DNA of 64,000 bases from assembly GCF_001435575.1 (NCBI RefSeq), contig NZ_AZEA01000001.1, positions 124,001 through 188,000 on the forward strand. Reading direction: 5' to 3'. Positions 53,048 through 60,469 of the stretch are shown in pieces (the first letter of the stretch is position 1; every line of letters starts with the position of its first letter). Position numbers and translations under genes: made by a program. The notes under the pieces were generated by a model that did not search any database, was not told the origin of the DNA, and was given only the letters and a program-made list of their open reading frames with translations. The DNA comes from Lentilactobacillus sunkii DSM 19904 (GTDB lineage Bacteria; Bacillota; Bacilli; Lactobacillales; Lactobacillaceae).

Positions 53048-53500
53048 ATGCCTAAAACCAAACAAATTCACTTGGATGAACAGTTGTGTTTTCAAGTATA
53101 TACAGTCAATAAAAAATTCAATCATTTTTATCAGCAGGCACTCAAGCCCTTTGATTTAACTTATCCCCAGTACATTGCCATGCTGACTCTTTGGCAATAT
53201 GCCCCACTTTCCGTCAAACAATTGGGTGAATATCTGCATTTGGACAGCGGAACTTTAACCCCTTTACTCAAACGTCTTGAGAGCCATGGCTGGATCACTC
53301 GCAGCCGAAGCGAATCTGACGAACGAACAGTTATCATTGAATTGACGGAAGATGCTCAAAATAAACGTGACGATGTTTTTGATCGTGTGAACAATTGTTT
53401 TGACATTCTCGGCCTCACACCTGAAGAAAAAGCCGCCTGCTCTCAAACAATGTCGACGATTGAAACTAAATTGGACGACTATAACGAGTCACATATTTAA
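53048..53500 (+). CDS. MarR/OhrR-family regulator with sensing cysteine
   Basis: 150-residue winged-helix repressor. The N-terminal LDEQLCFQVYTVNKKF places a single reactive Cys at residue 14, equivalent to the peroxide-sensing cysteine of Bacillus OhrR; the recognition region HLDSGTLTPLLKRLESHGWI and wing SESDERTVII match well. A second Cys and a third occur later (NCF, ACSQ). No ohr gene is adjacent; the sulfur operon follows after a terminator. It may regulate thiol or peroxide stress genes elsewhere, or itself. Confidence 0.9.
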   Translation: MPKTKQIHLDEQLCFQVYTVNKKFNHFYQQALKPFDLTYPQYIAMLTLWQYAPLSVKQLGEYLHLDSGTLTPLLKRLESHGWITRSRSESDERTVIIELTEDAQNKRDDVFDRVNNCFDILGLTPEEKAACSQTMSTIETKLDDYNESHI

Positions 53501-53536
53501 CGGTGGATTCCTCACACCAATAACAATCATCTTGGA

Positions 53537-53563
53537 AGCATCGCTAAAAGGCGATGCTTTTTT
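53537..53563 (+). terminator. Terminator of the OhrR-like gene
   Basis: Stem AAGCATCGC / GCGATGCTT, loop of five, T run. Confidence 0.9.
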
Positions 53564-53573
53564 GTATTCCTCA

Positions 53574-53602
53574 TTTACAAATTTAAATATTTAAGTTATT
53601 CT
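53574..53602 (+). promoter_or_regulatory. Promoter of the rhodanese-CoA reductase-cstR operon
   Basis: TTTACA (53574-53579), 17-base spacer, TATTCT (53597-53602). The operator palindrome begins about 13 bases after the -10, at the expected transcript start. Confidence 0.65.
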
Positions 53603-53614
53603 ACTTAGCAGAAG

Positions 53615-53630
53615 ATACCCCTAGGGGTAT
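53615..53630 (+). promoter_or_regulatory. CsoR/CstR-type operator palindrome
   Basis: ATACCCCTAGGGGTAT, a perfect 16-bp palindrome with the TACCCC...GGGGTA arms of known CsoR/CstR operators, between the promoter and the ribosome binding site of the rhodanese gene. The cstR-like repressor is the last gene of the same operon. Confidence 0.88.
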
Positions 53631-53646
53631 ATAAAGGAGAATTTTA

Positions 53647-53955
53647 ATGTTATTTACAAAAGTTAAATCTATTTCTACAAAAGAGCTTCAAGAACAATTA
53701 AACAATCAACCAACCATCGTGGACGTCAGAGAAGATTTCGAATACCAAGGTGGGCATATTCCGTCTGCCGTCAACCTGCCATTGTCAACGTTGGATCAAC
53801 AGACAGGAAATCAGAAACTTCATGAACCTTGGTACTTAATTTGCCGGTCTGGTGCGCGGAGCATGCGAGCTGCGAAGTACCTTACCAAAGCCGGCTATGA
53901 CGTCATTAACGTTAAAGGTGGGATGAACGCTTGGAACGGTCCCGTTCAAAATTAG
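53647..53955 (+). CDS. Single-domain rhodanese
   Basis: 102-residue sulfurtransferase with the active-site loop CRSGARS (Cys66) and the entry motif VDVREDFEYQGGHI. It accepts sulfane sulfur as a persulfide on Cys66. First gene of an operon controlled by a CstR-type repressor, so a role in moving persulfide sulfur to the next protein is likely. Confidence 0.93.
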   Translation: MLFTKVKSISTKELQEQLNNQPTIVDVREDFEYQGGHIPSAVNLPLSTLDQQTGNQKLHEPWYLICRSGARSMRAAKYLTKAGYDVINVKGGMNAWNGPVQN

Positions 53956-53967
53956 GAGGATGCCTTA

Positions 53968-55611
53968 ATGAAAGTTGTGATAATTGGTGGCGTCGCTGGT
54001 GGAATGTCAGCGGCTACCCGTTTAAGAAGATTATCTGAAGATACTGAAATTATTGTGCTGGACAAGGGTCCCTATGTCTCATTTGCAAATTGCGGGCTTC
54101 CCTATTACCTTTCAGGCGAAATCAGTCAGCGAAATGATCTGATTGTCCAAAGCCCAGAACAATTAAACAAGCGATTTAGAATCGATGTCAGACCCAATAC
54201 CGAAGTGACGCAGATCAACCCTGATGATCATCAAATCACGGCTACGCATAACGGAACTTCTGCAATTATAGATTACGACAAGTTGATTCTTTCACCCGGT
54301 TCAAAGGCAGTTATCCCAGATATTGCCGGTCTGTCTGACGCAGACAATGTCTTTACGTTAAGAAATATTCCGGATGTCGACAAAATTATGAACAATCTCA
54401 AACACGACCCCAAAAAGGCGGTCGTTATCGGTGCGGGATCAATTGGTGTAGAGGCAGCTGAAAATCTGACAAATCGTGGTCTTCACACGACCTTGATTGA
54501 AGCCGGAGACCATGTGTTACCATTTTTGGATTTTGAAATGGCCGGCATCGTGAATCATGAATTAGCCAAGAACGGTGTCGATATCAAGCTAAACACCCGA
54601 GTTGAAAAGTTTTCAGGACATCAGCTAAAGCTCAGTAACGGGACTATTATTGACGCCGACATTGTCATCCTGGCAACTGGCGTTCATCCTGATACCACAT
54701 TGATTCAAGAAGCCGGGATTGAGACAGGTGATCACGGTGGAATCATCGTTGATAGTCACTATCAAACATCCAAGCAGGATATATACGCCGTGGGTGACGC
54801 TATCCTGGTTAAACAATTGATTACAAATCATTTGACTTCAATCCCTCTGGCATCTCCTGCTAATCGGCAGGGACGCCAAGTTGCCGATGTCATTATGGGG
54901 ATGCACCGACTTAACAAGGGCGGGATTGGGACCTCAATTGTGCGGGTGTTTGGCCTCGCTGCTGCATCAACCGGCTTGAACACCAAACAGCTTCAAGCTG
55001 CCGGAATTGACTTTATGACCGTTCATACAACCAATTCAAGTCATGCCGGATATTTCCCGGGGGGGAAGCCACTTTCACTAAAAGTGATGTTTGACGCCAA
55101 AACTGGTCGATTATACGGTGCTCAAGCCGTTGGAGCTGAGAGCGTAGATAAACGGATAGATGTCTTATCAGTCGCAATCAAATTTAAGATGGGCATTACA
55201 GATCTGCCGGAATTTGAACTCAGTTATGCCCCACCTTTTGGTTCCGCAAAAGATCCCGTCAATATGATTGGATATGCCGGTGAAAATTTGCTGGATGGCT
55301 TATCTGAGAACATTCAATTCGATCAAGTGGACGAAGCAGTCAAAAGCGGTGACTACCTTGTTGACGTTAGAACTCCTGAAGAATTAATCCGTGACGGTCA
55401 GCTGCCAAATGCGGTGAACATTCCCCTAGATTCTCTGCGAGATCGTTTAAATGAATTACCAAAGGATCGACAAATTATTGTCAGTTGTCGAAGTGGCCAA
55501 CGCAGTTATCTTGCTGAACGGATTTTAAAAAATGATGGTTATCATGTTAAAAACTTAGATGGCGCGTTTTTAACATATCGTGCAGCTTACCCGGAAAGAA
55601 TCGTTCATTAA
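53968..55611 (+). CDS. CoA-disulfide/CoA-persulfide reductase with C-terminal rhodanese domain
   Basis: 547-residue FAD-dependent reductase. FAD-binding VIIGGVAGGMSAATRLRR at the N-terminus, the redox Cys42 in SFANCGLPYYL, a NAD(P)H loop VVIGAGSIGVEAAENL, and the ATGVHPDTTL/AVGDA motifs. From about residue 455 a rhodanese domain with CRSGQRS. Homologues such as the Enterococcus CoAPR reduce CoA-persulfides and polysulfides to sulfide. 12 bp after the rhodanese gene; the stop overlaps the region just upstream of cstR. Confidence 0.92.
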   Translation: MKVVIIGGVAGGMSAATRLRRLSEDTEIIVLDKGPYVSFANCGLPYYLSGEISQRNDLIVQSPEQLNKRFRIDVRPNTEVTQINPDDHQITATHNGTSAIIDYDKLILSPGSKAVIPDIAGLSDADNVFTLRNIPDVDKIMNNLKHDPKKAVVIGAGSIGVEAAENLTNRGLHTTLIEAGDHVLPFLDFEMAGIVNHELAKNGVDIKLNTRVEKFSGHQLKLSNGTIIDADIVILATGVHPDTTLIQEAGIETGDHGGIIVDSHYQTSKQDIYAVGDAILVKQLITNHLTSIPLASPANRQGRQVADVIMGMHRLNKGGIGTSIVRVFGLAAASTGLNTKQLQAAGIDFMTVHTTNSSHAGYFPGGKPLSLKVMFDAKTGRLYGAQAVGAESVDKRIDVLSVAIKFKMGITDLPEFELSYAPPFGSAKDPVNMIGYAGENLLDGLSENIQFDQVDEAVKSGDYLVDVRTPEELIRDGQLPNAVNIPLDSLRDRLNELPKDRQIIVSCRSGQRSYLAERILKNDGYHVKNLDGAFLTYRAAYPERIVH

Positions 55612-55624
55612 GGAGGATAGATCC

Positions 55625-55873
55625 ATGGCGTGTGATCCTAAAATTACCAACCGCTTGAAACGAGCAGAAGGACAAATTCGTGGCATTTTAAAAATGATGG
55701 ATGATGACAAGTCATGTCAAGAGACTATGGTTCAACTCATGGCCGTTCGATCCAGCCTTGATAAAGTGATGGGTCTGGTTGTAGCGGAGAATATTCGGCA
55801 TTGTTTGGATGAGAATGGCAATGTCTCAAACGACAAAATTGAAGAAGCCCTCAAGATGATTGCCAAATTATGA
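55625..55873 (+). CDS. cstR: CsoR-family persulfide-sensing repressor (CstR-like)
   Basis: 82-residue four-helix repressor: NRLKRAEGQIRGILKMM is the family signature. Cys31 (KSCQETMVQL) and Cys60 (IRHCL) are at exactly the positions of the persulfide-sensing pair in Staphylococcus CstR, while the copper-binding His of CsoR (four residues before Cys60) is Asn56. That argues for sulfur rather than copper sensing. AAGGAGG is placed before the ATG at 55625, 14 bp after the reductase stop. Likely releases the palindrome upstream of its operon when the cysteines form a polysulfide link. Confidence 0.9.
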   Translation: MACDPKITNRLKRAEGQIRGILKMMDDDKSCQETMVQLMAVRSSLDKVMGLVVAENIRHCLDENGNVSNDKIEEALKMIAKL

Positions 55874-55905
55874 TAAACGTTGAAATTTAAATCTGCAGTA
55901 AAACG

Positions 55906-55935
55906 AACCAGTGGCAATGACCGCTGGTTTTTTTT
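55906..55935 (+). terminator. Terminator of the cstR operon
   Basis: Stem AACCAGTGG / CCGCTGGTT (one G-T pair) and eight T. Confidence 0.85.
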
Positions 55936-58893: not shown

Positions 58894-60469
58894 TTACTTA
58901 ACGTAAGCTTCCTTGAAATTGTAGTTGGCACCGGCAGTGTTATAGACAATACCCTTGACCTTTGAGTTAACCATCCATTTTTCACCTGATTGATAAAGTG
59001 GAATAATAGCCTGGTCTTTTAATGCCAAGTTCTGTGCCTTGACCATATCATCCCAACGGGCATTTGCATTGCTTCCGTCGTCAGCATTACTTGATTTAAT
59101 TAATGAATCGTATTGTGAATTCTTCCATCCGGAGATGTTGCTTGGATTGTTTGAAGTCAAAATATTCAGGAATGTGATTGGGTCGGAGAAGTCAGCAAAC
59201 CAGTTGGCAACCGTTACCGTAAATTGACCTTCAGCTTGACGGGAAAGAATTGCCCGACCAGGAATGTTATTCAATGTAACCTTTAATCCAGGTAATTTTT
59301 GTAAGGCGCTTTGGAGGTACTCACTTAACTGCTTCTGATCACTTCCATCAGAGTTCAACAATGTGAAGTGAAGGGATGTGCGGCCAACTTCTTGCAAGCC
59401 TTCTTTGAACAGCTGCTTTGCTTTGGTTGGATTGTAACTCATGGATGCAGGTGCAGTAGTATCCTTGGTAAAGTCGGTTCCGTTCTTAGGCGAAACAGCG
59501 AGTCCATCGGAAACAAAGCTCTTATTATCAATGGCGCCGCCACCCATCACTTTGTTAGCCAAAACTTTTCGATTGATGATCATTGACATTGCTTGTCTGA
59601 TCTTTAAGTTCTTGAAAACTTTGTTCTTTTGGTTAACTGCAATGTAGTAGTTGGAAGACTGTTTACGTGAAATCATATCCTTCTTGTTACCCATTTGTTT
59701 AGCCTGGGTAGCAGACAGTTGATGTATCAGGTTGAACTTCAAACTTAATGTTGTCCAGCTTGACTGACTTCTTGTCCCAATAATCTTTGTTCTTCTTTAA
59801 AGTCCAAGTATTATTGGTACCCGTCCATTTGGTTAATGTAAATGGACCATTATAGACCTGGGTCTTTGACGAAGTTCCGTAATCATTACCATATTTGTTA
59901 ACGGCTTTAGAATCTTGTGGGAAAAATACAGGGAAGCCCATCAGTAAGTTAAAGTATGGAATTCTTTGTTCAAGTTTCACTGTCAGTTTATATTTACCAT
60001 CTGCTTTAATCCCCAATTTGGAAACTTTTGCTTTTTTATTTTGAATTTTGTCAGCGTTTTTGATACCGGAGAAAAGATAACCATATTGTGATGCGGTCTT
60101 TGGATTCAAAGTCCGCTGCCAAGAATAAACAAAGTCTTGGGCAGTCACTGGATCACCATTACTCCACTTGGCACCTTTTCTGAGATTATAGGTATAGGTC
60201 TTACCATCCTTGGAAACGGTCCAATTCTTGGCAATTCCTGGTTCAACTTTACTATCCTTACCTAACCGAACTAGCCCTTCATCGACGTTATTCAGGACGT
60301 TGAACGTTCCAACGGCGGTTGTCTTTGACGGATCAACCGTTGTAAGTTCGGAATCAGTTGATGTGGTAATTGTCTTTTTTTCTTGACCAGAATTTTGGCC
60401 ACAACCAGCCAGAATCAATGCAATGCTTGCTACACCGGCAAGTGCAGCTACTCCACGAGATAAATGCAT
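58894..60469 (-). pseudogene. Frame-shifted oligopeptide-binding protein (OppA-like)
   Basis: N-terminal piece at 59699-60469: lipoprotein signal with LAGCG, then the SBP_bac_5 pattern (VEPGIAKNWTVSKDGKTYTY, FVYSWQRTLNP). The C-terminal piece (to 58894) has LKIRQAMSMIINRKVLANKV and ends in KEAYVK. The frames change near 59720, at DTST / LSATQAKQMG. Intact relatives have about 15 more residues there, so a deletion of some 40-50 bp with length two mod three best explains it. The total length is 1576 bp against a typical ~1620. A sequencing error alone would not remove the residues. Confidence 0.85.

Follow-up and report, generated by a model that had tools for sequence, protein, structure and literature searches.

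A putative CstR-controlled persulfide-clearing operon in Lentilactobacillus sunkii DSM 19904, resembling the cst-like operon of Enterococcus faecalis

The window analysed here, a stretch of 64,000 nucleotides from Lentilactobacillus sunkii DSM 19904, carries three genes that the list of open reading frames and the Pfam matches identify as one plus-strand unit, running from a rhodanese through a reductase-rhodanese fusion to a CsoR-family repressor (Table 1). The observation made in a preliminary description of this DNA is confirmed, with one correction of detail: the three genes were said to run without a gap and do lie at the place given, but they are spaced by 12 and 13 nt, each gap containing a GGAGG. 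The promoter is followed in order by 12 nt, ATACCCCTAGGGGTAT, AAAGGAG and the start codon of the rhodanese, so that the palindrome sits downstream of TTTACA-17-TATTCT as had been described. For the repressor, a longer frame of 97 aa from GTG 55580, which overlaps the reductase, was not preferred. Rhodanese matches in the genome number three, with open frames 106, 137 and 551 aa long, and two of these belong to the operon.

Table 1. Coordinates of the operon and its flanking signals (positions within the window).
Feature	Position	Strand	Basis and remarks
Terminator-like hairpin between upstream MarR/OhrR-like gene and operon promoter	53534..53561	+	
Sigma-70-type promoter, TTTACA-17-TATTCT	53574..53602	+	9 of 12 matches; layout shared with relatives
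Putative CstR operator, ATACCCCTAGGGGTAT, perfect palindromic 16-mer	53615..53630		12 nt past the -10 hexamer
Single-domain rhodanese, 102 aa	53647..53955	+	ORF; PF00581; one cysteine, Cys66, in CRSGARS
CoA-persulfide-reductase-like flavoprotein with C-terminal rhodanese, 547 aa	53968..55611	+	ORF; PF07992, PF02852 and PF00581
cstR-like repressor, CsoR family, 82 aa	55625..55873	+	ORF; PF02583; Cys3, Cys31, Asn56, Cys60
Terminator-like hairpin with T-tract, after cstR	55905..55930	+	

Among solved structures, the reductase is closest to the CoA-persulfide reductase (CoAPR) of E. faecalis (8a56; E 1.2e-199 over residues 2-545), followed by the CoA-disulfide reductase 3icr/3ics; 3ICS is the B. 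anthracis CoADR-RHD (PMC9405070). In E. faecalis, sulfide strongly raises CoAPR, and the enzyme requires both C42 and C508 (PMC9405070). Both are conserved here as Cys42 and Cys507, the sole cysteines of the protein, which combines a FAD/NAD(P)H disulfide-reductase fold bearing the C42-type cysteine with a C-terminal rhodanese bearing the C508-type cysteine. Since the flavoprotein superfamily is common to CoA-disulfide reductase, NADH oxidase and the operon's reductase, the enzyme could instead act mainly as a CoA-disulfide or peroxide/oxygen reductase in general thiol redox, with the rhodaneses transferring sulfur for the thiolation of tRNA or of cofactors. However, a rhodanese fusion that retains the two catalytic cysteines characterizes CoAPR/Npsr (PMC9405070, PMC7969121), and the reductase scores under the NCBIfam cut-offs for CoA-disulfide reductases (468.8 of 578.8 bits for TIGR03385, 369.2 of 394 for NF010037 and 361.6 of 458 for NF007123). 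Given scores below these cut-offs, the substrate assignment rests on homology to CoAPR.

The copper-binding CsoR proteins share an x-C-H-C ligand set, in which the His is a copper ligand. In the repressor of the window this set is broken, since the His is replaced by Asn56, four residues before Cys60. Cys31, Cys60 and the Asn are thus all present, as the preliminary description had it, together with a Cys3 that went unmentioned. The repressor matches PF02583 with 88.0 bits (cut-off 22.8), and is the only CsoR-family gene in the genome. Its best solved relative is 7mq1/7mq2 (E 6.4e-15), to which both cysteines and Asn56 align; the Asn is found at this position in 7mq1 and is replaced by Ala in the variant chain 7mq3. 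These structures, which we take to be of a protein from S. pneumoniae, were deposited under the name 'copper-sensing repressor csoR'; 7MQ2 is nevertheless called CstR elsewhere, and the repressor is like this CstR in having both cysteines and an Asn where copper CsoR has His. (For the naming of 7MQ2 as CstR, see PMC9774590.)

A copper sensor (CsoR proper), regulating an operon that is part of copper handling, would accord with membership in the CsoR family (PF02583), with the name carried by the best PDB chains and with a best NCBIfam match to the copper sensor RicR, albeit at 54.6 of 175 bits and so far under its cut-off; the likeness between CsoR and CstR operators also speaks for it. It is contradicted by Asn56 at the place of the expected copper ligand, as in 7mq1, and by operon neighbours that are rhodaneses and a reductase, with a copper gene absent. 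In addition, contig C33 elsewhere in the genome has a CopY/BlaI-family gene whose frame closes with a cluster of cysteines; the Met/His-rich frame that follows resembles, on visual inspection, a copper P-type ATPase. This is circumstantial support for copper being handled elsewhere. On the strength of Asn56 and the gene context we rejected a copper CsoR, and consider this identity most improbable. The Asn by itself is less informative: it occupies position 56 in 137 of 140 fetched CsoR-family proteins and, with named loci added, in 72 of 93 representatives, and being general in the family it rules out a copper site of the classic type, yet cannot alone prove persulfide sensing or single out CstR. 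It is the two cysteines, the Asn for His, the linkage to sulfurtransferases and the palindrome at the promoter that together argue for a repressor of CstR rather than copper type, as initially proposed.

The palindrome ATACCCCTAGGGGTAT is the sole exact site in the genome (2.69 Mb in 79 contigs, a draft that is 99.78% complete). With up to three mismatches allowed, it is matched once in the window against 0.07 expected, and the one further such site in the genome, with three mismatches, sits within a predicted ORF. To cover a wider regulon, we scanned the genome with a relaxed pattern, ATACC-N6/7-GGTAT, using the reversed pattern as a control, and obtained 7 places against 2 for the control. 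Five of the sites other than the operon's own were inspected; four fall within predicted ORFs, one of which (L322) lies just behind a predicted GTG start and could be upstream of the real start, and one (L324) is intergenic but without the CCCC/GGGG arms. A wider CstR regulon was rejected on these grounds, and a regulon of one operon is the simplest reading. In S. aureus, CstR probably has direct control of a single operon (PMC5480029, PMC9774590). As for the other signals, terminator-like sites number 5 in the region against 2.6 expected, whereas promoter-like hexamer sites number 6 against 5.9, which is chance level. The hexamers were therefore discarded as stand-alone evidence for a promoter, and their support comes only from the layout shared across loci.

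It had been suggested that relatives be searched for the same gene order and palindrome, and both recur. Each locus was scored by its highest-scoring match to the motif ATACCCC-(2 or 3)-GGGGTAT within a 280-bp interval around the predicted start of the first gene, with same-size intervals from other parts of the same loci as controls. At least 11 of the 14 positions matched upstream in 34 of 47 cstR-linked loci of the family, a count that takes in the window itself, from which the motif was defined, against 11 of 940 controls; at a threshold of at least 12 of 14, the figures were 31 of 47 and 3 of 940. Among the named loci L232-L280, which are mostly from Bacilli (L241 is from Proteiniclasticum) and of which 37 were linked and 36 scored, one having been dropped for a short upstream region, at least 11 of 14 positions matched in 32 (11 of 720 controls), and among L281-L311 in 9 of 15 (4 of 300 controls). 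Because the loci are related, these counts are not independent. Scores below 11 of 14 in the tested interval were obtained for 13 of the 47 family loci, 4 of the 36 named loci and 6 of the 15 loci of L281-L311. At L068, L118 and L260 the miss stems from the start chosen, the operator becoming visible once the start is placed better, and six family misses all come from a single, near-identical type of operon that lacks the motif (five in genus g16 and one in g38).

The layout of promoter and operator is repeated in the five closest operons (L067-L071) and in E. moraviensis (L232). TTTACA-17-TATTCT or TTTACA-17-TATGAT is found in L067-L070 and TTCACA-17-TATGAT in L071, each 8-12 nt ahead of the operator, and E. 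moraviensis has TTTACA-17-TATGAT 10 nt ahead of it; the promoter of L072 is weaker (TTTATA-17-TATCCT). Of seven named loci compared, E. moraviensis alone shares this arrangement: the best promoter matches touch the operator, or almost do so, in L245, L272 and L253, lie 6 nt ahead of it in L242 and are weak in L234, while at L260 we found no comparable promoter at that place. From its position in the window, the operator would act by blocking the operon promoter.

CstR searches gave matches in 135 of 397 genomes of the family and in 12 of 24 of the genus (the window's own genome included; one match, in G355, is partial). A reductase relative at E 1e-120 or better is present in 98 of the 397, and in the genus a reductase at least 69% identical in 7 of 24 genomes, again counting its own. 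The loci examined comprise most of the CstR-search matches and part of the reductase-search matches. Among the family loci retrieved, the order rhodanese-CoAPR-(rhodanese)-cstR is met repeatedly across several genera, and the set of rhodanese, CoAPR and cstR is also found in loci of Enterococcus, Trichococcus, Pediococcus and Listeria. A reductase relative was present in 53 of 61 family loci, the other eight having cstR-type genes without it; of the 53, 31 had cstR in the fetched stretch and 22 had none, so the linkage of cstR and reductase is not constant. The 22 loci speak for a general thiol-redox enzyme, but linkage of a CstR-type repressor in the other 31 and in named loci, with the fused rhodanese, makes that role very unlikely. 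Two same-genus relatives show operon decay, or possibly assembly error: in L072 (5685-5864, G355) a truncated cstR follows rhodanese and CoAPR genes whose frames read through, and in L071 (5560-5860, G291) the N-terminus of the reductase is interrupted. Elsewhere, L149 has an NADH-oxidase-like gene, thioredoxin and csoR with rhodanese neighbours absent, and L214 has a CsoR-family gene without rhodanese neighbours and a thioredoxin gene close by on the other strand.

The operon is a lactobacillus member of the already known enterococcal cst-like class, and in this respect largely ordinary. A two-cysteine repressor, a CoAPR with fused rhodanese and a separate rhodanese are what it shares with the E. 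faecalis cst-like operon (CoAPR/CoaP, PDB 8A56), which consists of CstR, RhdA, RhdB and CoAPR, is reported to be regulated by CstR and induced by sulfide, and in which CstR also regulates CoAPR (PMC9405070). The gene set had been said to differ from enterococcal CstR systems, a claim that this composition shows to be wrong; judged by genes alone, CstR, CoAPR and a separate rhodanese are all found here. Unlike E. faecalis, however, the window has one separate rhodanese rather than two, and the second cysteine of its CstR is at position 60 rather than 62. In E. faecalis cells, C31 and C62 of CstR and C508 of CoAPR are persulfidated (PMC9405070). In E. moraviensis L232, for which genes were called here only, rhodanese-CoAPR-rhodanese-cstR lie on one strand with the operator ATACCCCTATGGGTAT; its reductase and CstR are 60% and 62% identical to those of the window and its CstR also has Cys3, but a second separate rhodanese stands between reductase and cstR. 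In Streptococcus sp. SK643 (L254), cstR is on the other strand, after rhodanese-CoAPR-rhodanese, and its product is by eye near-identical to the CstR of 7MQ1/7MQ2.

TauE belongs to the cst operon of S. aureus, and was described as missing here. This holds for the operon, which also lacks SQR in contrast to its S. aureus counterpart, but six TauE-family matches occur elsewhere in the genome. The reported absence of CstB is borne out, none of the three rhodanese matches of the genome being CstB-like. In S. aureus, CstR is accompanied by CstA, CstB and SQR (PMC8148161), and its Cys31/Cys60 pair, shared by the repressor of the window, acts as a persulfide switch in which C31-C60' links form and the cross-linked form has lower operator affinity (PMC5480029, PMC9774590). 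The operator probably belongs to the same class as those of staphylococcal and enterococcal CstR, as the comparison of loci suggests. Unlike in S. aureus, the output would be reduction to H2S rather than oxidation, and the gene content is consistent with the earlier suggestion of persulfide reduction instead of sulfide oxidation.

We consider it highly probable that the operon clears persulfides under the control of CstR, like the one described in E. faecalis. The genes, the cysteines, the operator and their conservation are directly observed; DNA binding, persulfide chemistry and CoASSH as substrate are expected by analogy with published homologues, and the mechanism is well supported by homology. 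Without reactive sulfur, a CstR tetramer would sit on ATACCCCTAGGGGTAT just past the promoter and block transcription. Low-molecular-weight persulfides or polysulfides would react with Cys31, which would then form a disulfide, trisulfide or tetrasulfide bridge to Cys60 of an adjacent protomer, and the resulting drop in DNA affinity would switch on the operon including cstR itself, giving negative feedback. The sulfane sulfur would be taken up by the small rhodanese and by the fused rhodanese at Cys507, carried by reductase-bound CoA to Cys42 beside the FAD, and reduced there by NAD(P)H to yield H2S and CoA. As Cys60 is missing in several operon-linked relatives, the dithiol mechanism is not universal.

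Instead of detoxification, the operon could support the use of polysulfide or elemental sulfur as a sink for electrons from NADH: a role in sulfur respiration has been proposed for Npsr-type enzymes (PMC7969121), and a lactic acid bacterium might gain NAD+. A persulfide-sensing repressor, and the protection of the CoA pool proposed in E. faecalis (PMC9405070), suit detoxification better, and we hold an electron sink in its place to be unlikely, although the two roles are not mutually exclusive. The characterization of the organism as fermentative was overstated and is to be read with care, since the genome encodes cytochrome bd subunit I. The listings of our literature search, confined to open-licence papers, showed none on CstR in lactobacilli: PMC8148161 and PMC4776306, as consulted, do not treat it, and PMC4521753 was set aside because CSTR there denotes a tank reactor. 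The persulfide-clearing reading places a minimal CstR/CoAPR system with a visible operator and promoter in the Lactobacillaceae, in a layout that recurs across Bacilli, and thereby renders the handling of persulfides by lactic acid bacteria readily testable.

Relatives with natural variants, through loss of Cys60 or a truncated cstR, offer ready-made comparisons for the number of cysteines that CstR needs. We clustered 195 CsoR-family sequences, from the family and the named loci, at 85% into 93 representatives, of which 66 have C31 and C60, 24 have C31 but not C60 (including a single truncated frame) and 3 lack both. An N-terminal cysteine like Cys3 of the window (MACDPK) is present in 9 of the 24 without C60 against 10 of the 66 with both, a weak association (Fisher p = 0.038, with relatedness ignored). 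It is conceivable, if rather doubtful, that Cys3 is part of the sensor and that in some relatives the switch has moved from Cys31-Cys60 to Cys3-Cys31, in which case the repressor of the window would be a three-cysteine intermediate. Against a simple replacement of Cys60 by Cys3 stand six CstRs at CoAPR loci of Streptococcus (five) and Lactococcus (one) that lack both (L233, L242, L255, L261, L264 and L273). Divergent cstR genes keeping Cys3 and Cys31 without Cys60 lie by CoAPR relatives in L107, L108, L110, L111, L112, L138 and L142; the upstream operator scores 12 or 13 of 14 in L107, L108, L111 and L112, and none was seen upstream of the CoAPR gene in L110. The reductase frames exceed 800 aa in L107, L108, L110 and L112, and in L112 a thioredoxin gene lies between cstR and the CoAPR relative. 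The CsoR-family proteins of L221, L222, L226, L227 and L229 have no cysteine at 31 or 60, and hence no such thiol switch; in L226 an NADH-oxidase-like gene is next downstream.

Directly upstream of the operon in the window lies a MarR-family gene (53048-53500, +) with a Cys14, OhrR-like at 123 of 200 bits against the NCBIfam OhrR model; OhrR is among the MarR proteins reported as sulfane sulfur sensors (PMC11211675). It was rejected as an operon member, as a terminator-like hairpin intervenes and, among L067-L072, a MarR match occurs only in L067. Weak MarR matches are also found near the rhodanese-cstR genes in L121-L123. Further along the window, on the minus strand, a gene at 58894-60469 is split into the overlapping frames 58894-59742 and 59699-60469 by a frameshift or an assembly error; its product is presumably peptide-binding-protein-like.
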